53,015 nt of DNA, from positions 1 through 53,015 of the IMG/VR virus record IMGVR_UViG_3300032523_001454; one strand, 5' to 3'. This DNA is from a virus. Below, one piece after another: positions 330 to 38,900 of the stretch (position 1 is the first letter of the stretch; every line of letters starts with the position of its first letter). The notes under the pieces were generated by a model. The model saw nothing but the letters and a program-made list of their open reading frames with translations. It made no database searches and was not told the origin of the DNA. The translations under genes were made by a program, and so were the position numbers.

Positions 330-729
330 TAGACAACAATTACAAATAATCGTACAGATGATTCAAAACATATTAGACTCATCGTCACAGACAGACTCTG
401 AAGTGTCTGTAATGCCTGTAATTAATAACACAGTTAAGACAAAAAGCAAAAAGTCTGCTGGGACAAACGCAACCAAAAAGAATCCGGCTAAACAAAGACC
501 TAATGCTTTTGAGAGTATGCCAGAGATGCATATGCACAAAGAAGATGTTGAGATAGATAAAAAGCTAGCAATCCAACCACCCACAGCGAGAGTTCGAGCA
601 TATAAGCCTATTAGCGTTAGGTGTCGTTCGTGTGGTAAAAACGAGAAAGTTAATGCTGCTGTGATTCCAGAATCCACAGATCGATACAAATGTAACAAGT
701 GTTCAGCGATGCCCGCTGGTGGAGAATAG
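316..729 (+). CDS. Zinc-ribbon phage protein upstream of the helicase
   Basis: This is a 137-residue protein of unknown function. Residues 1-95 are polar, rich in Ser, Lys and Asn, and probably disordered. The C-terminus holds two CxxC knuckles, CRSCGK near residue 103 and CNKC near 126, separated by about 20 residues; together they form a typical zinc ribbon. The sequence between them (YKPISVRCRSC ... DRYKCNKCS) is the only region that looks conserved. The start codon lies inside the end of the preceding frame, and its last codons (GGTGGAG) supply the likely ribosome-binding site of the helicase gene, so the three genes are translationally linked. Because it sits directly upstream of a DnaB-type helicase, it could be a helicase accessory or DNA-binding factor. 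That rests on position only, and no loader ATPase motif is present. Confidence 0.7.
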   Translation: MDHNSRQQLQIIVQMIQNILDSSSQTDSEVSVMPVINNTVKTKSKKSAGTNATKKNPAKQRPNAFESMPEMHMHKEDVEIDKKLAIQPPTARVRAYKPISVRCRSCGKNEKVNAAVIPESTDRYKCNKCSAMPAGGE

Positions 730-730
730 A

Positions 731-2200
731 ATGGCCCTAGTATTAGCTGATCCTTCCGCAGAGAGAGCTGTTTTATCTGGCATATGCAAGTATGGAGAAG
801 AAACATATTTAGATATAGCAGATATTGTGCAAGAGACTTCTTTTACAATAGATAGCAATAGCACGATCTTTAAGTGTTTAAAAGAGATCTGTGAAAAACA
901 ACATCATGCTAGCATAGATATTGCATCCATATACTCGGTAGCACAAGAACTCGGATTATCGGATCTGCTCTCAGACAAAGACGAAGTGCAGCACCTAAGA
1001 TCTATATTAGATTTTCCTGTAAACAAAGATAATATTCGTAAGTTTGCAGCAAAAATAAGAAAACTACAAATAGCTAGACTTTTGTATACCCAGCTAGAGG
1101 AAGCAAAGAATAAATTATCTGAAGTTACGGGCAGCGAGTCTGTTTCTTCTATAATCGGTATCGCAGAAGATGCTGTGTTTGATTTTACCTCTTTGGTCAA
1201 CGATAATGATAATGCTCCTCTGTGCATAGGCACTGATATTGACGAATATATTAAGAATCTGTCTTTAAACCAAGTTGACCAAGTTGGTATTCCAACAGGA
1301 TTCCCGGTTTATGATCAGTCAATAGGTGGTGGCTTAAGAAGGGGTACTGTGAATATTATCGCAGCCAGACCTAAAACGGGTAAAACACTATTAGCAGATA
1401 ATATGGGAGTTTATATATCCTCCAATCTCCAAGTCCCCGTCTTGAATATGGACACAGAGATGAACAAAGAAGATCATATTAATAGAATCCTAGCTATGAT
1501 GACGGAAACAGAAATTAACCAGATAGAAACAGGGAAATTTAGTAATTCTCAAGACAAGAAAAATAAAATACAAAAAGCAGCGGAAAAACTCAAAAACACC
1601 CGGTTATATTATAAGTCTATTGCTGGTAGACCTTTTGAGGAACAGCTTTCTATTATGAGAAGGTGGATCGTCAAAGATGTTGGACTAAATGATGATGGTT
1701 CCGCTAAACCATGTGTAATATTCTATGATTATCTTAAATTGATGGATAGTCAGGGTATGTCTCAAGACATGAAGGAATATCAGGTGTTGGGCTTTATGAT
1801 GACCGCTTTGCATAATTTTGCCACAAAATATAAGGTACCAATAGTGGCCTTCATACAATTAAATAGGGACGGCATCAGCAAGGAAAGCACCGATACCGCT
1901 AGTGGATCTGATAGAATCATATGGCTATGTAGTAATTTCACTATTTTTAAACGTAAGTCAGACGAAGAGATAGCAGAAGATGGGCCAACAGAAGGAAACA
2001 GAAAACTAGTGCCTTTAATCAGTAGACACGGAGGAGGACTAGACGATAATGACTATATAAACTGTCATATGCAGGGGTGGTGTGCTAAGATCACCGAGGG
2101 TAGAACCAAGTTGGAAGTAGTTAATAATATTGATAACACTAAGACATCTAATAAATTTAATATAAATGACGATGAAGAAACCTCAATACCGTTCGTATAA
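731..2200 (+). CDS. DnaB-family replicative helicase
   Basis: This is a hexameric 5'-3' replicative helicase of the RecA/DnaB fold. The N-terminal ~130 residues (PSAERAVLSGI ...) match the DnaB primase-interaction domain. The Walker A motif is ARPKTGKT, near residue 211, within NIIAARPKTGKTLLADNM, closely like E. coli DnaB AARPSMGKT. Walker B is VIFYDYLKLMD, and the later segment GSDRIIWLCSNFTIFKRK corresponds to the DnaB H4 region and arginine finger. Length is 489 residues, normal for DnaB. I chose ATG 731 because GGTGGAG ends about 6 nt upstream; an in-frame GTG at 719 would add four residues. The gene overlaps the primase gene by 35 nt, so helicase and primase are translated together and presumably form one primosome. 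No helicase-loader ATPase is visible in the window. Confidence 0.93.
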   Translation: MALVLADPSAERAVLSGICKYGEETYLDIADIVQETSFTIDSNSTIFKCLKEICEKQHHASIDIASIYSVAQELGLSDLLSDKDEVQHLRSILDFPVNKDNIRKFAAKIRKLQIARLLYTQLEEAKNKLSEVTGSESVSSIIGIAEDAVFDFTSLVNDNDNAPLCIGTDIDEYIKNLSLNQVDQVGIPTGFPVYDQSIGGGLRRGTVNIIAARPKTGKTLLADNMGVYISSNLQVPVLNMDTEMNKEDHINRILAMMTETEINQIETGKFSNSQDKKNKIQKAAEKLKNTRLYYKSIAGRPFEEQLSIMRRWIVKDVGLNDDGSAKPCVIFYDYLKLMDSQGMSQDMKEYQVLGFMMTALHNFATKYKVPIVAFIQLNRDGISKESTDTASGSDRIIWLCSNFTIFKRKSDEEIAEDGPTEGNRKLVPLISRHGGGLDDNDYINCHMQGWCAKITEGRTKLEVVNNIDNTKTSNKFNINDDEETSIPFV

Positions 2201-3329
2201 TCAGAGTGAACTAAAGTTTATCTGTGATCAGCTGTGCGACAGAATAGAAGATCTCCTTGAGACCCTAGATGTTTCAGAGGTTCGTCTGGTCGGTAAGATG
2301 GTCGTGGGAACCTGCCCTATTCATGGAGGAGATAACCCATCTGCTTTTAATCTGTATCCCGAGGGTGAGTCCTATAGGGGGAATTGGAAATGCAGAACAC
2401 AGGGGTGTGACTCTACATTTAAAGGGTCAATTATAGGCTTTATCAGAGGGGTTCTATCCAGCAAGAAATACGGGTGGAGTAAAGAGGGTGACAATACCGC
2501 TTCTTTTAATGAGACTATTGAGTTTATCAAGTCTTTTTTACAGAATGATTTAACCAACATAAAAATATGTACTATTAAAAAAGAAAAACAGAATTTTTCA
2601 ATAATGGTAAACAATATTAAGCCACCAGCAGAGAGTCTGTCTTCTAAGAGTATCACTAAGGAACACGTAAGAAAATCTTTGACTATACCCTGCTCTTATT
2701 TTTTAGATCGTGGGTTTACCACGAAGATATTGGATAAGTACGATGTAGGAACTTGTAATATTTCTGGCAAAGAAATGTATGGTAGGGCTGTGGTACCAAT
2801 CTATGATAATGATTATAGCTATTTGGTTGGATGTAGTGGAAGATCTCTTTTTGATAAGTGTCCCAAATGTGGACTGCACCACAACCCAGAGCTAGACTGC
2901 CCAGAAAAAGCAATGTCTTGGACCCATTCTAAATGGAGACACAATAAAGATCTCAAGTCCCAGAACCACCTATATAATTTTTGGTTTGCGAAAGAATATA
3001 TACTAAAGTCTGCTCAAGTAGTCTTGGTAGAAAGCCCGGGAAACGTGTGGAGATTAGAAGAAGCTGGTATACATAATTCTGTCGGTATGTTTGGATCATC
3101 ATTAAGCGATAGACAAAAAATGCTTTTGGATGGGTCAGGAGCGATGACTATAATAATATTAACAGACAATGATGCTGCTGGGGAAAAGGCAGCAACTAGT
3201 ATAAAAAACAAGTGTAAAAACACCTATAAGGTTGTGCATCTGCCGATAACCAAAGCAGATGTGGCTGAATTAAGCGTCTCAGAGATTCACGAACAAATAC
3301 TACCAACTATAGAAAAACATCTATGCTAA
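2166..3329 (+). CDS. DnaG-family DNA primase
   Basis: This 387-residue protein has the two hallmarks of DnaG. An N-terminal zinc-binding domain carries CPIH near residue 50 and CRTQGC near 77. A TOPRIM catalytic core shows the conserved glutamate in LVESPGN (about residue 288) and the acidic pair in LTDNDAAGE (about 332). It makes RNA primers at the fork together with the upstream helicase. It is shorter than cellular DnaG (about 580 residues) and lacks an obvious C-terminal helicase-binding domain, as is common in phages. A second cysteine cluster (CPKCGLHHNPELDC, about residues 238-251) lies just before the TOPRIM core and is unusual. The gene overlaps both neighbours, by 35 nt with the helicase and 7 nt with the kinase. 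ATG 2166 and ATG 2172 are both possible starts, and neither has a clear Shine-Dalgarno site. Confidence 0.9.
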   Translation: MTMKKPQYRSYNQSELKFICDQLCDRIEDLLETLDVSEVRLVGKMVVGTCPIHGGDNPSAFNLYPEGESYRGNWKCRTQGCDSTFKGSIIGFIRGVLSSKKYGWSKEGDNTASFNETIEFIKSFLQNDLTNIKICTIKKEKQNFSIMVNNIKPPAESLSSKSITKEHVRKSLTIPCSYFLDRGFTTKILDKYDVGTCNISGKEMYGRAVVPIYDNDYSYLVGCSGRSLFDKCPKCGLHHNPELDCPEKAMSWTHSKWRHNKDLKSQNHLYNFWFAKEYILKSAQVVLVESPGNVWRLEEAGIHNSVGMFGSSLSDRQKMLLDGSGAMTIIILTDNDAAGEKAATSIKNKCKNTYKVVHLPITKADVAELSVSEIHEQILPTIEKHLC

Positions 3330-3919
3330 TCGGATTTTCTGGTCGCAAACAATCTGGCAAAAGCTCGTCCACAGACTATATTGTTTCTTTGATAGAGAAA
3401 CACAGGCTCGATATTTCTTATAAGGTATATAGTTTTGCAGATCCCTTAAAGCAGGATATTTGTATCAATATATTAGGATTGTCTTATGACCAATGCTATG
3501 GTACAGATGATGATAAGAATACGGCCACAGATCTTTGGTGGGAAGGGGAGAAACTAACCGCTAGAACAGCTATGGAGATTATTGGTACCAAACTATTTAG
3601 AGCATTAAAAACAAATGTGTGGGTGGATGCTACCATTAATAGAATTAAAAAAGAGAATATAGATTTGGCCATTATTGCTGATTGTAGATTTCCAAATGAG
3701 GTTGAGGCTATTACAAATGCTGGGGGATATAATATAAGATTAGATTTAGATCCCTTTCATTCCCCATCTACTAGTGAAAACTCTTTAGATAGGTCTGTAT
3801 ATGATTGGTCTAATTTTGATTTAATTATTGAAAATTCTACCATGACTATAGAGGAAAAGAACAAAGCTATCCTGCACTTTCTATATAGATATAAGATAAT
3901 ACCACACATAAAGGAATAA
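3323..3919 (+). CDS. Deoxynucleoside monophosphate kinase (T4 gp1-like)
   Basis: This 198-residue P-loop kinase phosphorylates dNMPs to dNDPs, raising the nucleotide supply for phage DNA synthesis. The P-loop GRKQSGKSS is at residues 7-15. The family signatures SFADPLKQD (about 40-48), RTAMEIIGTKLFR (about 84) and DCRFPNEVEAI (about 119-129) are all present in order, matching the phage dNMP kinase family. Length is typical for that family. The ATG lies 7 nt inside the end of the primase gene, so the two are translationally coupled. I see no feature indicating which base is preferred or whether modified nucleotides are substrates. Confidence 0.9.
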   Translation: MLIGFSGRKQSGKSSSTDYIVSLIEKHRLDISYKVYSFADPLKQDICINILGLSYDQCYGTDDDKNTATDLWWEGEKLTARTAMEIIGTKLFRALKTNVWVDATINRIKKENIDLAIIADCRFPNEVEAITNAGGYNIRLDLDPFHSPSTSENSLDRSVYDWSNFDLIIENSTMTIEEKNKAILHFLYRYKIIPHIKE

Positions 3920-3968: not shown

Positions 3969-4964
3969 ATGTGCCCACAACAATATTTTTTTGAGTACGT
4001 ACTAGGGTGGAAATCCACATCTAATAAGAAAGCAGACAAGGGAACAATCTGCCACAAGGCTTTAGAAATTTTAGCCTATATTAAATTATACCATCAGGAT
4101 GGGCTACCAATATATAATGACGATATATTAGGAGATATAGATATTAAAAACTATGATTTAACCATGATCATAGATAAGGTATACCATTATTATACGTCTG
4201 CTTTTAAGCATCATGAGTGGAGTGAAAAAGATAAGAAAGATTGTCATGCTTGGGTACAGAAAGCCTTGGTTGCCCATGATGGTAATTTTGACCCCAGAAA
4301 TAGGGATATACTTCAACCAGAACAAAGATTTGATATTGTCATTCCAAAACCTTGGGCATACTATAAATATCAGACCAAAACAGAAAATTTAGAAGGATAT
4401 TTGGCAATCAAAGGAACCATAGATCTTATAACTAAGGTAAATGATAATACAATAGAAATCATAGATTGGAAAACAGGCAAAAGATTAGATTGGGCCACGG
4501 GTCAAGAAAAAACACTAGCTAAATTACAAAATGACCCACAACTCAGAATATATCATTATGCGGTGAGTCAACTATACCCACAGGTTGAACATATTATGGT
4601 GACTATTAATTATATTAATGACGGAGGAGCCTATACTATCTGTTATGATAAGAGTGATTTATCTAAAACAGAAGATATGTTAAGAGAAAAATTTCAAATA
4701 ATTAAGAATACAGAGATACCCAAGCTGAATAAATCTTGGAAATGTAGTAGATTGTGCCATTTTGGTAAAACAACCTTTGAGAATACAGCAATACTACCCA
4801 TTGTAGAATACAGAGATAATCAGGTGTGTAAGGTAGACACCATGATGACCAAATGCGAACAACTTAAGCATGATATTGATATAAGTGGGATAACAAACAT
4901 AGTTGACAACTATACAGTTCCGGGATATACTATAGGCAAGTATCAGGCTCCAGGAAGTGTCTAA
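3969..4964 (+). CDS. RecB/Cas4-like PD-(D/E)XK nuclease
   Basis: This is an exonuclease-type protein of the RecB/Cas4 superfamily. Motifs in order: GTICHKALE (His motif, about residue 25), KGTIDLIT (catalytic Asp), EIIDWKTGKR (Glu/Asp-x-Lys) and QLRIYHYAVSQLYP (Q-x-x-x-Y motif). One cysteine lies at the N-terminus (MCPQQYFFEY) and further cysteines near the C-terminus (WKCSRLC, TKCEQ), the spacing seen when Cas4/AddB proteins bind a 4Fe-4S cluster; this is an inference. The coordinates use the first ATG, but family members have a conserved segment before the CPxxY motif. The same frame continues upstream to 3918 without a stop and encodes ITYLRSSSYGTHS, so translation probably begins at an ATA or ATT codon near 3921-3930, behind AAGGA at 3911-3915. 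Expected role: DNA end processing in phage recombination or host DNA degradation. Confidence 0.85.
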   Translation: MCPQQYFFEYVLGWKSTSNKKADKGTICHKALEILAYIKLYHQDGLPIYNDDILGDIDIKNYDLTMIIDKVYHYYTSAFKHHEWSEKDKKDCHAWVQKALVAHDGNFDPRNRDILQPEQRFDIVIPKPWAYYKYQTKTENLEGYLAIKGTIDLITKVNDNTIEIIDWKTGKRLDWATGQEKTLAKLQNDPQLRIYHYAVSQLYPQVEHIMVTINYINDGGAYTICYDKSDLSKTEDMLREKFQIIKNTEIPKLNKSWKCSRLCHFGKTTFENTAILPIVEYRDNQVCKVDTMMTKCEQLKHDIDISGITNIVDNYTVPGYTIGKYQAPGSV

Positions 4965-4967
4965 AAC

Positions 4968-6851
4968 ATGAAAAATTATACGCCCTTACATTGCCATTCT
5001 ATGTACTCCTTATTGGACGGACTATCTAAGCCGTCTCAAATGGTGGAAAGATGCTTGGAAATAGGGGCTTCTGCTTGTGCCATAACAGATCATGGAACAA
5101 TAGCGGGTGCTGTTAAGTTTTATAACCAGATGAAAAAGTCTAACATCAAACCCATTCTGGGGTGCGAGATATATCTGTGTGATCAAGCTGCGGATATTCA
5201 GGATAAAACAAACAGAGCCTTAACACACTTCTTGATACTGGCTAAAAACCTGCGTGGTTGGAATAAGCTGATCAGTTTAGTTTCTGAGTCTAATAGGCCA
5301 GACTTTTTTTATCACAAGCCTAGACTCAATTTAGAGAGCCTAGCACCATTCTGTGACGGGGATTTGATCGGGATGTGTGGACACATGGGTTCTCTACTAT
5401 CTGATAAGATTATGGTAGGAGATCAGATGGACCCAGATTGGAAAAACAAGGGAGTTCAATTAATAGGAACTCTTAAAGATATGTTTGGTGCAGAAAATCT
5501 ATTCTTGGAAGCACAACTTATGGATGCTAACAATAATCCATCACAAATATTAATCACAGACGCTGTAAGAGAGCTTGGTAAGCTCACACGAACAAAGGTG
5601 GTTTGTACCCCAGACGCCCACTATGCAAAAAAAGAAGATGCCATAGACCAAAGAATATTATTGTGTAATAATCTTAAAACAACAATGCCTGAAATCAGTC
5701 GTAAAATTAGCAACAATGAAGATGTGCCACTATCGTGCTTTTTTACTTCAGACAATTTTCATATCTTGTCTCAGGAAGAAATGAGAGAGATACATACAGA
5801 AGAAGAGATAGATAATACCAACCTAGTAGAATCTTTATGTGAAGACTACGATATCCATAGTAGGCCAAGATTGCCTCCTTTTAAGTGCGATACCACGCCA
5901 GATGAACACCTAAGACAACTATGTAGAGATGGTTGGAAAGCTAAAATATCTGATAATATTAGCAAAGAGCATCAGGGTGTCTATCTTGATAGAATTAAGT
6001 ATGAACTAGATATTTTACAAGGGGCGGGCTTATCCAGCTATTTTTTAATAGTACAAGACATTGTTGAGCACATTAGAGGTAATAATTGGTTGCCTGGGCC
6101 CGGCAGAGGCTCTGCTGCTGGTTGTTTAGTATCCTATCTAATAGGTATTACCGGAATTGATCCAATTAAATATTCTCTGATGTTTGATAGATTTTATAAT
6201 TCTGGAAGAAATACGGCTGATCGAGTATCCATGCCTGATATTGATGTGGATGTTCCTGTGGATAAAAGAGAGCATATTATTCAATATATCAAGGATACGT
6301 ATGGTTCTGCACAAGTCTGTCAGATGGTGACATTTAATACCATAAAGGGTAGAGGGGCCATAAAAGATGTGCTAAGGGTGTATGGTAACGTGTCTTTTGA
6401 AGAGATGAATAATATAACTAAAAATATTCCAGACGAAGCGAAAATTGCCGACGATTTACAAGATATGAAAGACGAGACAGGAGAAGCATCTATTATTAGA
6501 TGGGCCTTAGAGAATCAAGGAGAACGACTAAAAGAATGGTGTTATATAGGAGAAAACCAACAGTTAGAAGGGCCACTTGCCAAAAGGTTTGAACAAGCTA
6601 TTAGATTAGAGGGCACAAAGGTACATCAGTCCAAACACGCAGCAGGAGTGGTAATAGCGGATTCGGAACTGTCTAGCCTATGTCCTATGGTTTATGATAC
6701 AAAAACAAAGAGTAGAATTGCGGGTATGGAGATGGAAGATTTAGAATCTATTGGAATCGTTAAGTTTGATATTTTGGGTGTTGCAATGTTAGATAAGATG
6801 ATGTTTATTTCTGAGTATTTAAAACAAGGAGTCTCAAATGAAATTTCATGA
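4968..6851 (+). CDS. DNA polymerase III alpha, N-terminal half (PHP and palm)
   Basis: This 627-residue protein is the first half of a bacterial C-family replicative polymerase (DnaE). The PHP domain opens with PLHCHSMYSLLDG, followed by ITDHGT, GCEIYL and TPDAHY, so most PHP metal ligands look intact. The polymerase core shows GPGRGSAAG (nucleotide-binding loop), then PDIDVD with catalytic D424 and D426, and VKFDILG with the third catalytic D601. All three catalytic aspartates are therefore on this chain. The frame stops about 25 residues after the third aspartate, in the linker between palm and fingers. The fingers and the rest are encoded at 7707-10046. No intein N-half is seen at the end. 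The stop is embedded in the next small ORF (14 nt overlap). It must associate with the second chain to form an active enzyme. Confidence 0.93.
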   Translation: MKNYTPLHCHSMYSLLDGLSKPSQMVERCLEIGASACAITDHGTIAGAVKFYNQMKKSNIKPILGCEIYLCDQAADIQDKTNRALTHFLILAKNLRGWNKLISLVSESNRPDFFYHKPRLNLESLAPFCDGDLIGMCGHMGSLLSDKIMVGDQMDPDWKNKGVQLIGTLKDMFGAENLFLEAQLMDANNNPSQILITDAVRELGKLTRTKVVCTPDAHYAKKEDAIDQRILLCNNLKTTMPEISRKISNNEDVPLSCFFTSDNFHILSQEEMREIHTEEEIDNTNLVESLCEDYDIHSRPRLPPFKCDTTPDEHLRQLCRDGWKAKISDNISKEHQGVYLDRIKYELDILQGAGLSSYFLIVQDIVEHIRGNNWLPGPGRGSAAGCLVSYLIGITGIDPIKYSLMFDRFYNSGRNTADRVSMPDIDVDVPVDKREHIIQYIKDTYGSAQVCQMVTFNTIKGRGAIKDVLRVYGNVSFEEMNNITKNIPDEAKIADDLQDMKDETGEASIIRWALENQGERLKEWCYIGENQQLEGPLAKRFEQAIRLEGTKVHQSKHAAGVVIADSELSSLCPMVYDTKTKSRIAGMEMEDLESIGIVKFDILGVAMLDKMMFISEYLKQGVSNEIS

Positions 6852-7014
6852 ATTAGCGGTAGGAGATAGCTTTCTCTATAATAATAACCAGTATGTTAAG
6901 GTACAAGAAGTAAAGCTAAATTGTTGTAAGGTCAAGTATAATTGCTCTGCCAACAGCGGTGGGCAAGAAGTTAGACAACCTATGGACGAGGTAGAGAAAG
7001 TGAATCAGGGATAA
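6838..7014 (+). CDS. Small 58-residue protein between the polymerase halves
   Basis: This ORF has an ATG 14 nt before the end of the N-terminal polymerase gene and a TAA at 7012-7014. The next gene starts 7 nt later, so it fills the gap with the same tight packing as its neighbours. The sequence begins MKFHELAVGDSFLYNNNQYV and continues with basic, Cys- and Val-containing strands. The pattern VGDxFxYNNxxYVKVxEV suggests a small beta-barrel of the kind found in short phage proteins with an SH3-like fold. I do not recognise a family. Its position, co-translated between polymerase palm, exonuclease and fingers, makes a structural role in the replicase possible but unproven. Confidence 0.6.
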   Translation: MKFHELAVGDSFLYNNNQYVKVQEVKLNCCKVKYNCSANSGGQEVRQPMDEVEKVNQG

Positions 7015-7021
7015 TATTTAA

Positions 7022-7717
7022 ATGCTAACCAAAAAAATATGTGTCTTTGATTTTGAGACAGACGGATCTGACCCACAGCAATGTAGTCCTGTTCAGATAG
7101 CCGCATTAATGATAGATCCTATAAAATTAGAAATAATTCCGGGGTCAGAATTTAATGTCTTCTGTAAGCCAGAAGTAATGGAGAAAGATGATAAATACCA
7201 TTATGAGACAGATATCCTGGCTTTTCATGCCAAGGTAAGAGGATGTTCTCAAGATGATATCTATAAGCAGTGGCAACAATATCCCTCTCAAGAAATGTCT
7301 TGGAGGGCTTTTGCTATGTACTTAGAAAAGTACCATTGCGGTAATAGGTCTAAGAAAAGCCTGTTTAGTGCTCCTATTGCGGCTGGATACAATATAAATC
7401 GGTTTGATCTAAGAATAGTCAATAGACTAAGCCTGAAATATAAGTTGGTACACTCGTCTGAACAAACTTCTTCCATGTTCTATCCCAGAGATGTGTTAGA
7501 TATTATGAATCTAGTTTTTTATTGGTTCGAGAATATTAATCTCAAAAGCTATACACTAGATAACATTCGGGAATATCTAGGGATCTCTAAAGATGGGGCA
7601 CACGACGCACTAAAAGACGTTAAGGATTGTGCAAATATACTGATTCGCTTTTTAAGGCTACATAGAAAACTAGGAGAAAAGATCTCTTTCAAAGATTCTT
7701 TTATAAATGGCAATTGA
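7022..7717 (+). CDS. DnaQ-like 3'-5' proofreading exonuclease (epsilon type)
   Basis: This 231-residue DEDDh exonuclease has all its active-site motifs. ExoI is VFDFETDG (D and E, about residues 10-12). ExoII is GYNINRFDLR (Asp near residue 127). ExoIII-epsilon is GAHDALKDVKDC, where His and the Asp five residues later complete the set. Such enzymes remove mismatched 3' ends for DNA polymerase III. The gene lies exactly between the two halves of the polymerase and overlaps the start of the second half by 11 nt (ATG at 7707 before TGA at 7715), implying coupled translation and probably assembly in one complex. No obvious clamp-binding peptide was identified. Length is close to E. coli epsilon (243 residues). 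Confidence 0.92.
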   Translation: MLTKKICVFDFETDGSDPQQCSPVQIAALMIDPIKLEIIPGSEFNVFCKPEVMEKDDKYHYETDILAFHAKVRGCSQDDIYKQWQQYPSQEMSWRAFAMYLEKYHCGNRSKKSLFSAPIAAGYNINRFDLRIVNRLSLKYKLVHSSEQTSSMFYPRDVLDIMNLVFYWFENINLKSYTLDNIREYLGISKDGAHDALKDVKDCANILIRFLRLHRKLGEKISFKDSFINGN

Positions 7718-10046
7718 TTTTATCTGTGGTTGTAGTTTCCCTACTAAAAAACTCAAAGGGCTAATGAGTGTTGAGTATAGAGTTGATGATATTAGGTTTG
7801 ATTGTTCCAAAACCTGGGAACTCATAGCAGAGGGTAATACCAAGGGGTGTTTTCAGCTAGAGAGTAGGCTGGGGCAGTCTATGTCTAAAAAACTAAAACC
7901 GTCTAATATAGAAGAATTAGCGGCTTTGATTAGTATCATGAGACCGGGATGTATTTCTGGTGATACAAAAATATTTATCAATAAATATAAACATATAGAC
8001 GGCAACACCAGATTTCAAAAGGCTAAAATAAGAGATATCGTAAATAATCCGCAAAAGTTCCCACGAATACTGTCGTATGATGAAACCTCTGGTAAATTTA
8101 TTTCCAATAAAGTAATTAATGCATTTTATAGTGGGGATAAAGAATGCTTTAAAGTTATAATTCAAAGTAACGAAAGACGTAAAAGCGATGATGGCAAAAA
8201 AGACTATAAGCTTGAATGCACAGCAGACCATCAGCTATTAACCTTAACAGGATGGAAAGAGTTAAAAGATATTAATATTGGAGACAGAATATTAGTTAAT
8301 AATAGAAAAGGTAAAAAAATAGGATTGGGAACAAAAAGCTTCAGACAAAGATGTTATAAGACATATCAACAAAAATGTATTTTTTGCGATTGGAGTGGCG
8401 GATCCTTGGATGTGAATCATATTACGGGTAATAGATTTACCAATAATGATCCAAATAATTTATGTTACATGTGCCCTAACCATCATCGTGAATTTACAGA
8501 AGGCGCTATTTCTATAGCAAAGGTGAATAAATATAGACTAAAATATAAACTTCCAAAAACTATAGATGGTAAATGGTGCAAAGTAGTTGACAAAATTTCT
8601 GTGGGTATTAAAGATGTCTATGATATATCTATGACATCTCCTCACAATAATTTTATTGCCGGTGGAATAGTTGTACACAATTGCCTTGAGGCAGTCAGAG
8701 ACGATAAAACCGTTAGTAATCATTATATTGATAAAAAGAATGGTCTAGAAAGTGTCGATTATTTTCATGAAGCCCTAGAGCCAATCTTACAAAATACCTA
8801 TGGAGAAATGGTATATCAAGAACAAGCTATGGAAATAGCTAAAGATATAGCGGGATTTAATCTTCAAGAAGCAGATATGCTCAGAAAAGCTATCGGTAAA
8901 AAAAGACCAGAAGAGATGGCAAAGATCAAGTCCAAGTTTATAGACGGTTGTGATAACAAAAAGACTGTATCTAAAGATGAGGCAGAACAAATATTTGGTT
9001 GGATTGAAAAGTCTCAGAGATATTCATTTAATAAATCTCATGCTGTGAGCTATGCTATAAACGGCTATCTATCGGCTCATGCTAAAACACACTTTCCTAA
9101 GATATTCTTTTTGTCTTATTTAAAGTTCGCTAAAGATAAGATAGACCCCCAAGAAGAAATGTTACAGTTAATCAACAATGCTAAGGATATGAATATAGAT
9201 ATTGTTGGGCCGTCCATACTGATGAAAAATAGCGACTTTATTATTCAGGATGATAAAATATATTTTGGTTTAACCAATATTAAGGGGTTGGGACAATCTC
9301 TGTACACAAAGCTCATAGAGATGGTGGATCAAATACCACTTAATACTATCTCTTGGCCTAAATTTTTACTAAGCGTATTACTAAAGATCAATTCTAGTGC
9401 AGCTAAAGCTCTGATCTTATCTGGGGCATTAGATCACTTTAAAATATCTAGAAATAAACTTTTATTTGAATTTAATATAGTATCCATACTCACTACTAGA
9501 GAAATAGATAAATGTATAATTATTATAGAAGAAGATCGTAAGATCACTAAAATCGCAGATATTCTAAGGACTCTCTTATCTACAGAGAAGATTATCAAAA
9601 CTCGTCAACCTAAAATTATGGGTAGTATAGAACAGATCACTCATCCCCCATATTCTTTAGAAGATAACCCCGAGTGGATATCCGACAACGAGAGAGAACT
9701 ATTATCTGTAGCCATTTCTTGTTATAAAACAGACCAGTATGACTCTTCTTATGCTAATACCAACTGCAAAGATATCAAAACTCTGCCTAATAATAAAACC
9801 TTCTTTCTTATAGCTGAAATAGCTATGATGAATATTATTGTGACCAAAAGAGGTAAAACCCCCGGTAAAGAGATGTGTTTTTTAACCTTGTCTGATGCTT
9901 ATGGTAGTGTGGACTCCCCGGTGATGTTTTCCGAAGACTATGATAATAATAAGCATCTGCTACAACAAGGAAGGGTGCTTATGTTTAGTGGTCAAAAGTC
10001 TGGGAAAAACAATAGCCCTATTATAAAAAAATGTTTTATCGTGTAG
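7707..10046 (+). CDS. DNA polymerase III alpha, C-terminal half, intein-containing
   Basis: This 779-residue precursor carries the fingers, thumb-distal and OB parts of DnaE. The extein starts before GNTKGCFQLES and runs to IMRPG (residue 81). A 244-residue intein follows (residues 82-325), then the extein resumes with CLEAV. Later signatures are YGEMVYQEQAMEIA, ADMLRKAIGKKRPEEM and YSFNKSHAVSYA (fingers, incoming-nucleotide contacts). An OB-fold region near the C-terminus contains VTKRGKTPGKEMCFLTLSDA and GRVLMFSGQ. After splicing it would be 535 residues; added to the 627 of the first half this gives 1,162, virtually the length of E. coli DnaE (1,160), so no core region is missing. It lacks catalytic aspartates and needs the N-terminal half. 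The start overlaps the exonuclease gene. Confidence 0.92.
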   Translation: MAIDFICGCSFPTKKLKGLMSVEYRVDDIRFDCSKTWELIAEGNTKGCFQLESRLGQSMSKKLKPSNIEELAALISIMRPGCISGDTKIFINKYKHIDGNTRFQKAKIRDIVNNPQKFPRILSYDETSGKFISNKVINAFYSGDKECFKVIIQSNERRKSDDGKKDYKLECTADHQLLTLTGWKELKDINIGDRILVNNRKGKKIGLGTKSFRQRCYKTYQQKCIFCDWSGGSLDVNHITGNRFTNNDPNNLCYMCPNHHREFTEGAISIAKVNKYRLKYKLPKTIDGKWCKVVDKISVGIKDVYDISMTSPHNNFIAGGIVVHNCLEAVRDDKTVSNHYIDKKNGLESVDYFHEALEPILQNTYGEMVYQEQAMEIAKDIAGFNLQEADMLRKAIGKKRPEEMAKIKSKFIDGCDNKKTVSKDEAEQIFGWIEKSQRYSFNKSHAVSYAINGYLSAHAKTHFPKIFFLSYLKFAKDKIDPQEEMLQLINNAKDMNIDIVGPSILMKNSDFIIQDDKIYFGLTNIKGLGQSLYTKLIEMVDQIPLNTISWPKFLLSVLLKINSSAAKALILSGALDHFKISRNKLLFEFNIVSILTTREIDKCIIIIEEDRKITKIADILRTLLSTEKIIKTRQPKIMGSIEQITHPPYSLEDNPEWISDNERELLSVAISCYKTDQYDSSYANTNCKDIKTLPNNKTFFLIAEIAMMNIIVTKRGKTPGKEMCFLTLSDAYGSVDSPVMFSEDYDNNKHLLQQGRVLMFSGQKSGKNNSPIIKKCFIV
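7950..8681 (+). other. Intein with HNH homing endonuclease in the polymerase fingers
   Basis: This in-frame intein has 244 codons. It starts with Cys (CISGDTKIFI, block A), continues with ECTADHQLLT (block B, T-x-x-H), and ends GGIVVHN followed by Cys+1 of the extein (blocks F/G, preceded by VYDISMTSPHNNFIAG). The ends fit standard cysteine-nucleophile splicing. Between blocks B and F lies an HNH nuclease (about 8376-8490) with CIFC, DVNHI, an Asn-rich turn and CYMCPNHH, giving two zinc-binding CxxC pairs and the catalytic histidine. The insertion point is the invariant RPG motif of the fingers, so loss of splicing should inactivate replication. Endonuclease-bearing inteins usually use LAGLIDADG enzymes; an HNH type is less common and makes this one compact. 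Confidence 0.93.
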
Positions 10047-10121: not shown

Positions 10122-10499
10122 ATGAATATTATGTTGTTGAAGGGAAATTTGACCAGAGATCCAGAGCTGAGAAGTGTCACGACAGGAGAAAAGCAAACAT
10201 CTGTGGTGTCTTTTACGGTTGCTGTATCCAAGGAATTTACGAGAGCGAATGGGAACCAAGATAAGATCGTTTCTTATATTCAGTGTGAAGCATGGGATAG
10301 TGGAGCAGAAGCTATCTCTGCGTCTTTTCGCAAGGGGGATCTCGTAATCATAGAAGGAAGTCTCAGAAACGATAGCTGGGAAAAGGATGGGGTTAAGCAC
10401 TCTACTCTTAAGGTTCGGGTGAATAATTTTGCTAAGATCACCAGAACAAACAAGAAGAAGGTAGCAGAAGACGTAAGCGAAGAAGCTGTAGCCTTCTAG
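10122..10499 (+). CDS. ssb: Single-stranded DNA-binding protein
   Basis: This 125-residue OB-fold SSB of the bacterial type coats single-stranded DNA at the replication fork and in recombination. Typical signatures are MLLKGNLTRDPELR at the N-terminus, VVSFTVAVSKEF, SYIQCEAWDSGAEAI, FRKGDLVIIEGSLRNDSWEKDG and the closing strand LKVRVNNF. The C-terminus is acidic and ends EEAVAF, comparable with the protein-docking tip of bacterial SSB (usually ending in Pro-Phe), so it may recruit partner enzymes. It is shorter than cellular SSB because the disordered linker is almost absent. The gene has its own promoter, a strong Shine-Dalgarno site and an immediate terminator, so it forms a single-gene transcription unit, consistent with a need for many copies. 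Confidence 0.95.
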   Translation: MNIMLLKGNLTRDPELRSVTTGEKQTSVVSFTVAVSKEFTRANGNQDKIVSYIQCEAWDSGAEAISASFRKGDLVIIEGSLRNDSWEKDGVKHSTLKVRVNNFAKITRTNKKKVAEDVSEEAVAF

Positions 10500-10572: not shown

Positions 10573-12198
10573 ATGAGTGATCGCAAAAAAAGAATCCTAA
10601 TGATAGCGGAGTCCCATAACCTCAGTTCGGGTTTTGGTAGATACACCATAGAAATACTACAAAGACTATACGATAGTAACAAATACGAAATTGCAGAATT
10701 ATCCTGCTATTCTAATTCTGGCGTAATCTCCTCTCACCCAGTTCCTTGGAAAGTTTATCCTAACGCTCCTGATGCCGACGAATCAGAAGAGGGAAAAAAG
10801 GTATATAATGAGAACCCCATCAATCAATTTGGCCAATGGAGATTTGAAAGAGTTGTTCTACACTTTAAGCCAGACATTGTTTGCGATATCAGAGATTATT
10901 GGATGTTCGCATATCAAGAGCTCTCCCCATTAAGAAAATATTTTCATTGGATTATTGCTCCCACCATAGATTCCATACCACAAAGACAAGAATGGCTACA
11001 TACCTTTGAAAATGCAGATGTGTTATTGACACACACAGACTGGGCATATGACTATATCAAGTCTTTGAATAGGCCAATCAACCTATTAGGAGTAGTATCG
11101 GACTCTGTGGACACCAAACAATTCTGTCCGATAACACACACGAAAGCATACCACAAGGCAAAATACGGCATTCCCACAGACTCTATAGTCCTTGGTTCTG
11201 TGATGAGAAACCAAAAAAGAAAACTAATTCCAGCCTTATTCTCTATGCTCAGCAAATTAATAGAAAAAACGAATAATAGAAAAATTTATCTACACCTACA
11301 TACTTCATATCCGGAAAACGGTGGCTGGAATATACCAGAACTATTACAAGAGTACGGCGTGTACAATAATGTGTTATTTACATACTATGTTCCTGATAAC
11401 GGCACGGTCTTTGTCTCCCCCTATAAAGGCGCATTAATTCCGTGTCCAAACGATACTAGTAAAACAGCTTGTTTTCCCGGTGTGGTAAAAGGTTTATCTA
11501 ATGAGAAATTGGTAGAGATATATAACCTATTTGATGTTTATATACAGTATGCAATCTGTGAAGGTCTTGGTATACCACAACTAGAAGCTGCGTCTTGTGG
11601 CATACCCATTATGGCTGTTAATTATAGTGGTATGGAAGAAATAACCACCAAGGTTGAAGGAGCAAAGATATCTCATACCCTATCTAAAGAACTAGAAACA
11701 GGTTCTGATAGGGCTGTTCCAGACGACGATTGCCTAATTAATGAAATTATATCATGGATGAATTTATCATTATCGCAGAAAAAGGAAAAGTCTAAACGCA
11801 CCAGAGCATTGCTCATAGATCATTATGGGTGGGACAAGACAGCGAACGAGTGGATGAGAATCTTTGATACCCTAGAACCAAAAAACATATGGGATCAGCC
11901 TATGGTAACACAGCACGAAACGAAAGTTCCGGATAATTTAACAGCAAGACAATTTATTACGTATATCGTTCAAGAGCTAATGAAAGAGCCACTACTATTA
12001 AAAACTTATTTTATACAATCCTTAATTAGATCTGTTGATGAAAAATTTAGCAATGTTGGTGGCCACATAAATGAGGTAGCAATCCAACAGATTGTAAAAA
12101 CACTAGAAGTATCTCTGAATAATAAAATGATATGTGAGCAGTTACGATCCGGAGCAATACCCCTATCAGAATCATATCTGGTTTGTGATAACAAATAA
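10573..12198 (+). CDS. GT4-family glycosyltransferase 1
   Basis: This 541-residue GT-B glycosyltransferase of the GT4 (group 1) type transfers a sugar from a nucleotide-sugar donor. The N-terminal Rossmann domain starts RKKRILMIAESHNLSSGFGR. The donor domain contains the E-x7-E signature in CEGLGIPQLEAASCGIPIM, followed by GMEEI. About 120 extra residues after the core (from roughly 430) are helical and not assigned. I chose ATG 10573 over an upstream in-frame ATG at 10513, because the upstream one would place the terminator stem inside the coding region, whereas GGAG precedes 10573. The acceptor may be a virion protein, a modified DNA base or a host glycan; the sequence does not decide. It is the first gene of a sugar-modification cluster. 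Confidence 0.88.
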   Translation: MSDRKKRILMIAESHNLSSGFGRYTIEILQRLYDSNKYEIAELSCYSNSGVISSHPVPWKVYPNAPDADESEEGKKVYNENPINQFGQWRFERVVLHFKPDIVCDIRDYWMFAYQELSPLRKYFHWIIAPTIDSIPQRQEWLHTFENADVLLTHTDWAYDYIKSLNRPINLLGVVSDSVDTKQFCPITHTKAYHKAKYGIPTDSIVLGSVMRNQKRKLIPALFSMLSKLIEKTNNRKIYLHLHTSYPENGGWNIPELLQEYGVYNNVLFTYYVPDNGTVFVSPYKGALIPCPNDTSKTACFPGVVKGLSNEKLVEIYNLFDVYIQYAICEGLGIPQLEAASCGIPIMAVNYSGMEEITTKVEGAKISHTLSKELETGSDRAVPDDDCLINEIISWMNLSLSQKKEKSKRTRALLIDHYGWDKTANEWMRIFDTLEPKNIWDQPMVTQHETKVPDNLTARQFITYIVQELMKEPLLLKTYFIQSLIRSVDEKFSNVGGHINEVAIQQIVKTLEVSLNNKMICEQLRSGAIPLSESYLVCDNK

Positions 12199-12203
12199 TA
12201 TAT

Positions 12204-13310
12204 ATGGATAATATTTTATATATTGGCCCTTATAGAGAGTTTAGTGGTATGGGCAATGCCTCTAGACAATATATCAAGGCTCTGATAGTTGCTGGCCACA
12301 ATGTATCTGTGTGTCCCATCTATAATATCTATAGGGCATATCCAGAGGTAGATATAGATCCAGATATTTTACACAGAGAATCTAATCTCAGCACTAGCTA
12401 TGACAAGGTTATTCAACACACATACCCTCACCAGTATTCTTATGACTATAGATTTGCTAAAAATATTGGTATCCTACACCTAGAATCACACAATTATTAC
12501 CATAATCTAACCCAATATATTAATTTGATGGATGAGATAATAGTAGGCTCTCAGTATGTAGCACATAGCGTTCGTACCTCTGGGGTTTGTACTGCTCCAA
12601 TACGAGTGGTTCCTGAACCCATAGATCTAGAGATGGTAAAAACCTTTAGGGAATCTAACCCACCCGTTAAAAAAAAATCACAATATAAGTTTTATACAAT
12701 AGGGAGTTATATCTCTCGAAAGAATTTGGATATGGTTATAACAGCCTTCTTGAGCTTGTTTACCACACACGACCAAGTAGAACTAATCATCAAAACAAAA
12801 GAATATGGTCAACCAGAAGAATCTCTTCAACAGACCCTAGAGTATGATCTACATAATCTATACGAGTCTGTTAAAAATCTTGGGGTAAATAAACCCAAAG
12901 TAATGATTGGAGAAACTAGTTATAAGAATATTTTACATATACATAATAATGGTGATTGTTTTATTAATGCCTCATCAGGAGAGAGTTTTGGTTATTCCAC
13001 CCTAGAAGCTATGGCATTTAACAACAATATTATCGCTACGAATAACACGGGTGGTTCGGAAATTATTGACGCTACATGTGGTAGGTATGTACATTCTGAA
13101 CCAGTAGGATGTGTGGATAATCATAGTCATTTTTTATACAATTCTATGTATCAACAATGGAATAAGCCCACAGTGAATAGTTTAATGAAACAAATGATTG
13201 GATGTATGGAAGAATCAGAGTCGGAGAAAAAAGAACGTATAATATCTCAAAATAATAGAATAAAGAACTTCTCTTTAGAAACAGTTTCTAACCTATTGGC
13301 CACCCTATGA
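12204..13310 (+). CDS. GT4-family glycosyltransferase 2
   Basis: This 368-residue GT-B enzyme starts NILYIGPYREFSGMGNASR, with the glycine-rich acceptor-side loop of GT4 proteins. It has SYISRKNLDMVITAF in the donor domain (the common RKN motif) and the E-x7-E element in GESFGYSTLEAMAFNN, followed by TGGSEII. Length and order of motifs are standard. It begins 5 nt after the previous glycosyltransferase and overlaps the next gene in an ATGA junction, so the genes form one operon. It differs clearly from the preceding enzyme in length and motifs, which suggests a second sugar step rather than duplication. Donor and acceptor are unknown. Confidence 0.88.
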   Translation: MDNILYIGPYREFSGMGNASRQYIKALIVAGHNVSVCPIYNIYRAYPEVDIDPDILHRESNLSTSYDKVIQHTYPHQYSYDYRFAKNIGILHLESHNYYHNLTQYINLMDEIIVGSQYVAHSVRTSGVCTAPIRVVPEPIDLEMVKTFRESNPPVKKKSQYKFYTIGSYISRKNLDMVITAFLSLFTTHDQVELIIKTKEYGQPEESLQQTLEYDLHNLYESVKNLGVNKPKVMIGETSYKNILHIHNNGDCFINASSGESFGYSTLEAMAFNNNIIATNNTGGSEIIDATCGRYVHSEPVGCVDNHSHFLYNSMYQQWNKPTVNSLMKQMIGCMEESESEKKERIISQNNRIKNFSLETVSNLLATL

Positions 13311-13807
13311 TAGCATCACTAATAAATAAGCGATTAAATCACCCATACTATCCACAAATAGTCTGGACGCCGTGTGAAGATCCAGACTTTAAAGCATTTA
13401 TAAAAAGGGCGTGTGATGCCACTATGATAGATTTACATAGTACATACTTTGGTTTTAATAATATTTCATTAATTATCTGTAATAATAGAATAACACACCT
13501 AGACAAAAGCGTGGCACTCTCTAGATTTTTATCTTGTCCACTATTAGTGATAGACCACTACCCAGCACCCTCAATGCTGAATAACGATCATAATAATGAT
13601 TTTAGTATTGGACCAGTTTACCAAGTTGCAATATCTAACAGAGTATATCTGTCTTGGAATAAAATACAGGATATTGTTCTGGGCTATAATCCACAAGACC
13701 ACAAAAATGGGGAAGAGTGGAAAGACCTAGTTGTTCAGCTATCTCAAACAAACTCACGAATTACAGAAAAAGAGGAACTACAGTATGAAAACGCTAGGAC
13801 CACCTAA
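13307..13807 (+). CDS. Unknown protein resembling a GT-B N-terminal domain
   Basis: This 166-residue protein has no catalytic motif that I recognise. The middle section (FGFNNISLIICNNRITHLD ... LSCPLLVIDHYP) has the alternation of strand and helix, ending in an aspartate/histidine turn, seen in the first Rossmann domain of phage glycosyltransferases. No donor-binding domain or E-x7-E motif follows. It may be a remnant or an accessory subunit of the adjacent enzymes. It starts by a 4-nt ATGA overlap with glycosyltransferase 2 and ends 23 nt into the next gene. Confidence 0.6.
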   Translation: MIASLINKRLNHPYYPQIVWTPCEDPDFKAFIKRACDATMIDLHSTYFGFNNISLIICNNRITHLDKSVALSRFLSCPLLVIDHYPAPSMLNNDHNNDFSIGPVYQVAISNRVYLSWNKIQDIVLGYNPQDHKNGEEWKDLVVQLSQTNSRITEKEELQYENARTT

Positions 13808-14249
13808 AACAAAGACCTTGTATCACAAGCTCTTTTTGTATCATACAGAGCCAGACGCACCCATAGATCCATTCGTCTATTATGATATTCAAAAATTAAA
13901 TAAACTCAAAAATAATAGCGTAGAGGAAATTTTTATACAAGATCTTCTAGATTATTCCAATGGAGAAAAAGAATGCTTGGTACTCATTAATACTATTATG
14001 GACAAACTAAAGGGGGGCGGCTCTTTGCACATTCAGTCTACTGAACCATACCATCTTTGTGCTTCTCTATTGTCTAAGCAAATAGATGTTTTAACTTTTA
14101 GAGCAATGGTTTTTGCTGTGGGTAAAAAGACCATTTTTGCTCTTGGTCAAATCAAGTCTATGATATTGGATACAAATAAAGCAAGTATATCTCAAGCCAA
14201 ATTTATAAATGGTTTTCAATACTATTTACTATGTGTGAAAAATGAATGA
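13785..14249 (+). CDS. Methyltransferase-like small protein (degenerate)
   Basis: This is a 154-residue protein. The centre (SVEEIFIQDLLDYSN, then INTIMDKLKGGGSLHIQ) matches the second half of class I SAM-dependent methyltransferases: an acidic strand ending in an aspartate-rich turn, then a helix, then a 'LKxGG-x-L-x-I' strand. The first half with the SAM-binding glycine loop is not recognisable, so it may be catalytically dead or a partner of another protein. I chose ATG 13785 because AGAGGA lies 8 nt upstream; an in-frame ATG at 13731 would sit deep inside the preceding gene. It overlaps the next gene by 8 nt and belongs to the sugar-modification operon. Confidence 0.55.
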   Translation: MKTLGPPKTKTLYHKLFLYHTEPDAPIDPFVYYDIQKLNKLKNNSVEEIFIQDLLDYSNGEKECLVLINTIMDKLKGGGSLHIQSTEPYHLCASLLSKQIDVLTFRAMVFAVGKKTIFALGQIKSMILDTNKASISQAKFINGFQYYLLCVKNE

Positions 14250-14922
14250 TATCTCATATGTTATCATAGCCTGCTACCCAGACAGAGGCATGAAGTATAG
14301 GGGATCAAAAAGCTTGATGGAATTTAATGGTAGCAAACTACTACAACACCAGATAGACCTAATAATATCTGCTCAAAAATATTTAAAAAATAAATACGAG
14401 ATCATACTCGTTTGTGATTTTGATAAGCTAAAAATACACAAGGCATTTGGAAACCAGATTAAGATAGTTTCTACAGAAGACAGAACCAACCCCATCTTTA
14501 CGGGTTGTGCAGAAGCTAAGTATGATTATTTGGTCTTTATGGATTATGGGTGTTTGTGTAACACTAAATTATTAAAGAGTATTCAGAAGGTGGGTCCTAG
14601 TGTGGTATGCACAAAAGATTCGGGGTTGTCTCACCTAGACGTTGGCTGTATAACAAGTGAGAGAGGACTAGAACACATGTTTCTGGGGTTGGATCATAAA
14701 TTTACAAATATGTTTGTATTATCCAGCACGGAAAAACAGTCCATACTACAAAACAATCGGTGTCATAGGCATAATCTGTTGTATTTTGAAATTTTAAATA
14801 TCTTGATAGAAAATAATTGTATAATATCCACGATCAATGCTCCTAATAATAGTTTTTATTACTTTAATCATATGAGACAAAAAAATGGAATCTCCAAATT
14901 TATCAAAAAAAACCCCCATTAA
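14242..14922 (+). CDS. GT-A/nucleotidyltransferase-like protein
   Basis: This 226-residue protein starts ISYVIIACYPDRGMKYRGSK followed by SLMEFNGSKLLQHQID, the layout of sugar-1-phosphate nucleotidyltransferases: first strand, then R-G-x-K, then a 'xL..ngkpLL-x-x-Qi' helix. A later YLVFMDYGCL takes the place of the usual metal-binding D-x-D or LxGD segment but with only one clear aspartate. The GxGxR loop is replaced by CYPDRGMKYRG, so activity is uncertain. In a cluster of glycosyltransferases, activation of a sugar or direct sugar transfer is a reasonable role. It overlaps both neighbours (8 and 38 nt). Confidence 0.6.
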   Translation: MNDISYVIIACYPDRGMKYRGSKSLMEFNGSKLLQHQIDLIISAQKYLKNKYEIILVCDFDKLKIHKAFGNQIKIVSTEDRTNPIFTGCAEAKYDYLVFMDYGCLCNTKLLKSIQKVGPSVVCTKDSGLSHLDVGCITSERGLEHMFLGLDHKFTNMFVLSSTEKQSILQNNRCHRHNLLYFEILNILIENNCIISTINAPNNSFYYFNHMRQKNGISKFIKKNPH

Positions 14923-35988: not shown

Positions 35989-38900
35989 TTAGTCTGTCAC
36001 TATTGTTTTATCAAATGTTATACCTGATAATGGAAAAGCGTTCTTCAATCCTACTTCTATCGCTTGGAATATTTGTTCAGAGAAAGGTTTCAGCTTTGCT
36101 TCTAATCCATCTCCTCCATTTACATCTACTGTTATATTTATCGGAATACTTCCTGACACCTTAAAATCTATGCTTTTTGGTATATCGGCTAAGACCGTAG
36201 CAATATTCGTCAACGAGGTACTGAGTGATCCCATATTAGTTTGTAGGAGGGTTGCTGCTGTTGTTAAGCCTGCTGTGACCCCACCTAGTCCGCTAAAAGA
36301 ATCTTTAATGTTGCCTAATGATCCCAAAGCACTCGTAATAGAGGTGGCCCCATCTTTGAATGCCAGTTTAATGTCACTAAGAAATGTTTGTGTACTCGCA
36401 GAAAAATCTCCAATATCTAACTTAACACTATTGTATACACCACTAGGGCCATCAGGACCACCACCATCGTGTAAATACTTTACCGCTCCTCCCCGGTTAT
36501 AATAAGATCCCCTATTATTAATAGCTCTTAATAATGGTAGATTTTTAGCTGTTGAAGCCCTATTGACCACAAATTCCCCCGGGGTGAGCATCGCGGGTAC
36601 CGTATCAGTTCCCCTAGGCTGGAAATTAATATGACTACCCTGACTAGCGTAAACGGTTCCTCCTGATGACATTTGTGTAGGTCCAAATCTGGTTGTATCA
36701 GTCTTGGCCTGGGCTAATCTACCAGTAATTTCATCTTCATCAACCTCAGCTCCCATGTCCCTAAGGTCTTTCTTTTGAGTGTTGATCGTGTTAATAATGT
36801 TAGTATGAGCTATAGAGCCAACCTCAAGTGTCATTCTTTGAGCCATTAGCTTCTCTAGATTTATTCTCATGTTTTGTCTGAGCTTGATGTCTCTCTTGAT
36901 TTGTACCAGCTGATCATCGAGCTTCTTTTGTCTTTTTGCATTCTCTCCCCACAGAGTCCATACCTGGTAGCCAACCTTAGTAGTCTCGCTTGCTGCCCCT
37001 ACTGCCGCACCAGCTATTGCTCCTGGAGGACCGGCAATAATTGCTCCAACCATAGCTCCACGAGCAGTTGCTTCGTAATGAGCCAGTTGCTCATCTTCGT
37101 TTTCTGTTAGTGGTCTTCCTCTCACAAAACTTACTGCTGCGCCAGTGTCAGCTCCTCCAGAACTAGCACTCCCACTTGCGAGCCCCAAGAAAGTTCTGGT
37201 CACGGGATCCATGCCCTGAGCTTGGGCTTTTGAGTCATTATATCCATCATAAGCCCCTTGAAGCAGTGTGAGCCAAGCTCCTCCCTTACTCGCTAGACCC
37301 CCTATGAATTGAGCTCCAACCGCATTTCCTGCTATTGCTTTACCAGCAGCAATAGTCGCACCTAGACTAGTTGTTATCTCTGCCGCCCGCAGTCCTCCCT
37401 TAATCGCTGCTGTTTCTCCTGTCTCTTGTGAGTCTGATTCAATCGCGGCACCAGCTAGTTTGTATACTAACCCCGCCGCAGCATTAAATAAAGTAAGTTG
37501 TGGTATTCTGGTTTCTAGCATGCTCAATAAAGACGAGGGCAACAGGCTAGGTAATTGTAAAAGAGCTTTTGCTCCGGACTCGCCCAAATTAAGTGCAGCC
37601 ATCAAAGATTGCAGGATATCGTCAGCTTTCAAAGCCTTATTTGCATTTTTACCAATTTTAGTCACAGCGTTAAATTGTTTTAAAATACCCTCCCCACCCC
37701 CCTTCAAATAGGCCACTCCCCCATTCTCGTACCCCCGGGCCCCACCATTGATACTCTTTAACAAGGGGAGATTTTTCTGGGTGGCCTCTCGATTAACAAC
37801 AAATTCCCCCGCAGTAAGCATCGCGGGCACCGTATCCGTGCCTTTGGGTGCGAAATTCACCCCATCAGAACTACTCCCACCACGACTTCTATAAATGGGT
37901 CCACCATTCTGAGCATATTGTGGATCATATTGTGGCCACCCATATTGACTTCGTCGTGCTTCTATATTAGCATCATCTTGTTTTTTTCTCCGCTCTTTTC
38001 CATTAGGACTAGAATTAATATAAGCCTGACCATTAGCTCTTAACATAGCATCATAGTTGTATTCTCCCAAGGTTCTTCTGTATAGGACATAAGAAGATTC
38101 AAACTGAGAGCCTGAGCCCTTGTATGCTCTTAGTTGGTCATTGCCAATGTCTCCTTGGAGATCCTTGGGTCTTTTTTTACGATCTTGAGGTCTAACAGGT
38201 GGGGGTGGTCTTAAGGTCGTTTCTTTCTCCTGTGGACTTAATTGACTCTCTATGGGTGCTGCTACAATATTTTCACTACCATCCACAAGGGGTCTACGCT
38301 GAAAGGGTATTTTCTCTTTTGCTAGAGCTCGGGTTTGTCTGATCTTCCATTCCATTTGTAGAGCTTGAGAGGTTAGTATTGCGGCTATTATAGGGTCTAT
38401 TTCGGCTTTATGATTTGGGTCTTCAGCCATTTGAAGAAGTGGCAAATTTAATTGTGCTAAGGGAAAATCTATCATTTCTTGCAGAGAATCTCCGTTCATC
38501 TCGCTTAATGTCATTAGTCTTTGTGGTTTTAGACTATCTAATATAGTTCTCGTCTTTGCATTTGATCCTACTAGAGATGGTATAAAAGCATCTACGCCAG
38601 CTTTTAATTCATCTGTAAATGTGGGAGGACTAGTCGGATCTATGTCTCCCAAAAGTTTCATAACATTATCTAGACCATCTTCTTTAAACTTTATCATCTC
38701 CTGTACATAAGCTTGGAAGCCCGCTGGGTCACCGAGCATGCCAATTCCCGGCAAAGGTTTACCCTTCTCGTCCACACCGGCCGAAGCAGCTGCTCCACCC
38801 GTGACCCTAGTATCTATTCCTGTGACTCTTGTTGTGGGATTATATCTCAAATCGTTTAGCAGATCCAGTAGTGTTGGATCAAGATCTGGATTGTTTCCGA

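Follow-up and report, generated by a model that had tools for sequence, protein, structure and literature searches.

According to the survey of Barros et al. (PMC3666897), the PHP, palm, thumb, fingers, HhH and OB domains of every C-family DNA polymerase belong to one polypeptide chain. In E. coli, alpha (DnaE) is one chain and the DEDDh exonuclease epsilon is encoded separately, by dnaQ, outside dnaE; in PolC, the exonuclease belongs to the same chain as the polymerase and lies within the PHP domain. Cyanobacterial DnaE, as cited in passages of PMC3919608, is encoded by two genes, the products of which are rejoined into one chain by split-intein halves. Among phages, a two-gene Pol III alpha has been reported for the Microbacterium cluster EF phages (PMC7302621), and several other cultured phages have a broken enzyme. 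Rossellomorea phage phiT1 (gp20+gp18), Corynebacterium phage P1201 (gp59+gp58) and Mycobacterium phage Cuke (gp86+gp87) carry a two-gene DnaE broken at the same palm/fingers linker as the polymerase described here, whereas in ChewyVIII, Papyrus and Cybele, Pol III alpha is spread over two genes with the PHP domain separated, in Jayan, DnaE is broken before the catalytic palm strand, and in KLEB27-3, an HNH gene is located in the fingers of DnaE.

Here, we explored a complete IMG/VR virus record of 53,015 bases (the whole stretch, hereafter the window), the left part of which holds a replication operon on the + strand. The operon encodes, in this order, a DnaB-like replicative helicase (719..2200; PF03796, phrog_19), a Toprim DNA primase (2166..3329; PF13662, phrog_47), a deoxynucleoside monophosphate kinase (3323..3919; PF21448, phrog_139), a PD-(D/E)XK (Cas4/RecB-like) nuclease (3969..4964; PF12705, phrog_69), and, adjoining it, the N-half of a DnaE-type Pol III alpha of 627 aa (4968..6851; Pfam PHP, 1.2e-34; PF07733, 2.4e-71). 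There follow an ORF for a small protein of 58 aa, denoted S (6838..7014), which overlaps the N-half by 14 nt, a DEDDh 3'-5' exonuclease of 231 aa (7022..7717; PF00929 (RNase_T), 1.2e-11; phrog_192, 6e-22), the 779-aa C-half of the same type of alpha (7707..10046; PF17657, 9.9e-46; HHH_6, 2.3e-9), which overlaps the exonuclease gene by 11 nt, and, adjoining the C-half downstream, a single-stranded DNA-binding protein (10122..10499; PF00436, phrog_44). The original prediction, made from the letters and the ORFs, was that the two halves of alpha are set 855 nt apart by a 58-codon ORF and a complete DEDDh exonuclease, all overlapping or nearly touching; the ORF list reproduces every coordinate and length to the base, and the Pfam matches confirm the identity of the exonuclease. 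Elsewhere in the window, a 5671-codon ORF without a Pfam match (35989-53004, - strand) adjoins further giant ORFs of 1053-1483 codons that match no family clearly; the giant ORFs probably encode virion proteins.

The N-half comprises PHP, palm and thumb, and then the first helix after the palm (PHP and DNA_pol3_alpha domains in Pfam), and aligns with the alpha subunits of E. coli, Taq and Mtb. Even alone, it is recognized by the NCBIfam DnaE superfamily model TIGR00594, with 441.5 bits against a cut-off of 434.35 and coverage of model positions 1-572 of 1022, and both halves score as DnaE, not as PolC. The catalytic aspartates that had been picked out from the sequence (D424, D426 and D601) proved to be real, the triad being kept in 327 of 327 N-halves, and the alignment also shows a complete set of PHP metal ligands in the window. 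The alignment to Taq alpha ends at residue 628, and the C-half begins at Taq 641 (E. coli 584), so that the break, located 26 residues beyond the third catalytic Asp, corresponds to ~571-583 in E. coli alpha and to 629-640 in Taq alpha. Given where these alignments end and start on the solved alpha structures, the break is best placed in a loop at the palm/fingers border, immediately behind the first helix downstream of the third catalytic Asp, which refines the palm/fingers linker proposed originally.

The C-half comprises the fingers, HhH and OB-type end of alpha (DNA_pol3_finger, Intein_splicing and HHH_6 in Pfam), its profile aligning to E. coli alpha 584-1055; judged by length, it is devoid of the tau-binding C-terminal domain, and inspection by eye revealed no obvious QxxLF-like sliding-clamp motif. 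It is interrupted by a cis-splicing intein of 244 aa (7950..8681, + strand; residues 82-325; PF14890), located at RPG|C within the fingers domain, with borders C...HN|C and an HNH-like segment inside. The extein amounts to 535 aa and the two halves minus the intein to 627+535 = 1162 residues, the figure given in the original prediction. The intein-free C-half of a relative (L010) is predicted to fold alone (pLDDT 91.5), and the model matches the Mycobacterium and Taq alpha structures (7pu7/3e0d) with a TM of 0.70. Thus, Pfam, profile alignments and the structural match of the C-half concur that PHP, palm, thumb, fingers, HhH and OB follow each other in DnaE order across both halves, and the polymerase core is, as had been proposed, complete on two chains. 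Frames of intein size account for only 5 of the 206 distinct full C-half frames, and occupied RPG|C sites were seen in only a few relatives (L024, L025, L084-L087), which identifies the intein as a sporadic mobile element, unrelated to the split. Other half-genes contain insertions of their own, of roughly 0.8-1.3 kb each, near residue 381 (L067-L069) or 425 (L195) of the N-half and near residue 200 of the C-half (L123); these are probably inteins or introns.

Relatives of the locus, reaching down to ~37% identity in single proteins, were gathered by scanning viral contigs six times and genome contigs once, with the best 80 loci retained per scan and a locus counted if the N-half end and the C-half start could both be read. 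The 392 loci, among which many contigs occur repeatedly, represent 275 distinct junctions and 246 clusters at 95% nucleotide identity. All 392 of these best-80 loci share the split point and have the exonuclease between the halves, and none has the halves fused. The same search also recovered bacterial (host) DnaE as an unbroken chain, so that fused genes would not have escaped notice, although a fused sister lineage could exist beyond the best 80 loci per scan. Contig L002 shows just 37 differences from the window across the 12 kb that match, and the initial 20 all fall in the opening 156 bases of the contig; being nearly identical, L002 was left out of the independent support. The 44 split members sampled in a tree of 77 polymerases group together (SH-aLRT 100), apart from both bacterial and cultured-phage DnaE. 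Residue differences within this clade reach ~65%, and the distances of N-half, exonuclease and C-half correlate (Mantel r 0.91-0.94), indicating that the three genes have been inherited together.

Every relative has the polymerase on two chains, and the clade thus departs from the single-polypeptide rule of the C family. By sequence and descent, the window polymerase is still a DnaE, and only the one-chain layout fails. The closest parallels are phiT1, P1201 and Cuke, in which the aligned ends and starts of the two chains fall in the same linker, and the gap of phiT1 also holds a small gene (49 aa). However, none of the three has an exonuclease in the gap, and they are located on separate branches outside the window clade, contrary to what common descent of the break would predict; indeed, the nearest sampled relatives of P1201 and Cuke are unbroken at that point. 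The same break thus arose in all three cultured phages, so that the site evidently tolerates it. In ChewyVIII, Papyrus, Cybele, Jayan and KLEB27-3, small or HNH genes may occupy the gap, but the break points differ, there is no exonuclease between the parts and the breaks are sporadic as far as sampled. The cyanobacterial enzyme, which resembles that of the window in being encoded by two genes, differs in that the break in the window is not flanked by intein halves. PolC is likewise a C-family polymerase genetically associated with a DEDDh exonuclease, but in the window the PHP domain is continuous and the exonuclease has a gene of its own, placed between palm and fingers. The E. coli alpha-epsilon pair shares with the window DnaE-type alpha domains and a separate DEDDh exonuclease, but the exonuclease of the window is no recognizable epsilon orthologue. 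The claim of a new replicase architecture, as made in the original prediction, therefore stands in part: a two-gene alpha, and even this very break, is known from cultured phages, whereas the constant position of a DEDDh exonuclease gene between the halves was unique in our searches, and no description of such an arrangement was found in the open-access literature searched. What is unusual, then, is this position together with the fixation of the split across a deep and widespread clade.

The two-chain arrangement has to be weighed against the possibility that decay or faulty assembly produced the halves and that the phage relies on another polymerase. Broken genes are frequent in phages, and the records are metagenomic viral contigs, as are all the relatives, which come from many metagenomes. 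However, the order N-half, exonuclease, C-half recurs in each of the 246 junction clusters, with invariant catalytic residues in 327 N-halves and 211 exonucleases. Nor is there a second dnaE in any of the 40 contigs of 92-233 kb that were searched for PF07733 (palm) and PF17657 (fingers) sites: each has one palm and one fingers site, apart from two contigs in which the match is divided by an insert, so that these long relatives carry no intact dnaE elsewhere. Accordingly, both concerns voiced alongside the original prediction, an artefact of assembly and an intact dnaE in relatives, are dispelled, and we give next to no credence to decay or artefact. It is also highly improbable that the mature polymerase is a single chain, produced from one gene with an RNA intron or rejoined via a split intein, frameshift or bypass. 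The presence of an intein in the C-half, and the split inteins that join the cyanobacterial halves in the cited passages of PMC3919608, might seem to favour such rejoining, but the intein of the window is internal to the C-half and nearly all relatives lack it, and no intein segments were found at the N-half end or C-half start of any relative inspected, on which grounds a split intein was rejected. An RNA intron is rejected because no Rfam intron family matches between the halves and the interval is filled with conserved overlapping coding genes that have their own starts. Furthermore, the frames of the N- and C-half agree in only 31 of 160 segments, and at least 3 stops in the N-half frame separate the halves in every one of the 160. 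Of 160 distinct segments, 111 have overlapping exonuclease and C-half genes, and in another 24 the two genes are separated by 0-30 nt, a spacing that argues for coupled translation; no Shine-Dalgarno-like sequence precedes the C-half in the window.

A more serious contender accepts the two-chain polymerase but considers the exonuclease to be a neighbouring recombination or repair nuclease, with proofreading left to the PHP domain or to the host. The PHP pattern is indeed kept in 169 N-halves, about half of the total, including that of the window, so that proofreading could fall to PHP, either alone or alongside the DEDDh enzyme, and the exonuclease itself is only weakly similar to the PolC exonuclease, ExoI and other DEDDh enzymes, without being recognizable as epsilon. 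Nevertheless, it belongs with phrog_192, the DNA polymerase exonuclease subunit family, PF00929 is matched by 13 of 13 members of the exonuclease alignment, and the active-site residues (D10, E12, D129, H194 and D199 in the window) have never been lost, DEDDh being invariant in 211 of 211 distinct relatives. A mere neighbour would hardly be expected between the halves at every locus and coinherited with them. By contrast with the window, the other large subclade has lost the PHP metal site and has retained the exonuclease; in L275-L336 and their relatives, the PHP domain is shortened and most metal ligands are gone, with the polymerase and DEDDh residues intact. Loss of PHP ligands has been linked to the presence of a separate proofreading exonuclease (PMC3666897), and retention of the exonuclease where the PHP site has been lost is what would be expected if it proofreads. 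Taken together, the invariable position between the halves, the invariant active site and this retention make the exonuclease a candidate proofreading subunit of the split polymerase, and we consider the neighbouring-nuclease alternative doubtful, albeit with some claim to attention. In the window, both PHP and exonuclease could act in proofreading.

The small protein S was found exclusively between N-half and exonuclease (189 of 189 matches) and has an invariant F12 and an invariant CysCys pair (C29 and C30) in 79 sequences. It is predicted to form a compact small beta-barrel (AlphaFold pLDDT 93.3), for which the best PDB fold, EF-P domain I, is not significant (E 0.25). S is confined to the polymerase gap in about half of the clade and escaped detection in the other large subclade, whose N-half and exonuclease genes are often directly adjacent, suggesting an accessory and not a necessity. 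We considered and dropped a zinc bridge between the CysCys pair of S and a CGC extension of the C-half, because the two features do not co-occur: L026/L028 have S without CGC, and L197 has CGC without S. The exonuclease, perhaps with S, might still bridge the halves at the break in an obligate N-half-exonuclease-C-half assembly, an idea that we regard as rather unlikely; if true, polymerization and proofreading would be physically coupled in a manner unlike that in PolC or alpha-epsilon.

Other genes occur in the gap as well. In L200, the C-half is separated from the exonuclease by an Endonuclease VII-like HNH gene (7616-8002), to which ORFs of ~14 relatives are related, and still other relatives have HNH or methyltransferase genes in the gap. 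A homing endonuclease might conceivably have caused the break, although the EndoVII- and HNH-like gap genes are present in only some relatives and do not occur as an ancestral feature. In L019, a 2.6 kb insert between exonuclease and C-half (11740-14370) carries a DUF1559/type IV pilin-like gene and ThyX. Proteins with DUF1559 being typical of Planctomycetes, the former gene is a possible clue to the host. A large terminase subunit (phrog_2) in 24 of 25 long contigs, strong in 13, identifies the clade as tailed phages, and contigs of up to 233 kb suggest that these are probably jumbo phages; no sliding clamp was found in the 25 contigs. The exonuclease has no match among the 50,697 phage records of INPHARED, which include no cultured member of the clade. 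Some clade phages were binned into bacterial and Lokiarchaeota MAGs among the GTDB genomes (L195-L201), apparently by misbinning; the hosts implied are contradictory (Alphaproteobacteria, Flavobacteriales, Lokiarchaeota, SAR202 and Verrucomicrobiales), and host assignment from these contigs was rejected.

Thus, we propose with good confidence that the locus encodes a genuine two-subunit DnaE-type alpha with its own proofreader, expressed from an overlapping operon, with the two halves of alpha presumably docking non-covalently. Under this scenario, a single ancestral alpha chain would have suffered one break, in the loop located one helix beyond the third catalytic Asp, with a gene for a DEDDh exonuclease ending up in the gap. 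The N-half (PHP, the palm with the whole active site, and thumb) and the C-half (fingers, HhH and OB) would be made separately, along with the exonuclease, from overlapping genes of one replication operon. Most likely, each half folds on its own and the two associate at what used to be the palm/fingers interface, to yield what we infer to be the replicative polymerase of the phage, with the exonuclease as its presumptive proofreading subunit.

The break has been held through deep divergence in an entire clade of uncultured phages, even though C-family replicases have been described as single polypeptides. Together with the breaks that arose independently at this linker in three cultured phages, the split of this clade points to a natural seam in the polymerase, which should help to clarify the interplay of palm and fingers and to design split polymerases. 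The presence of the exonuclease in the gap, in turn, would make the coupling between polymerase and proofreader testable in a compact phage system.
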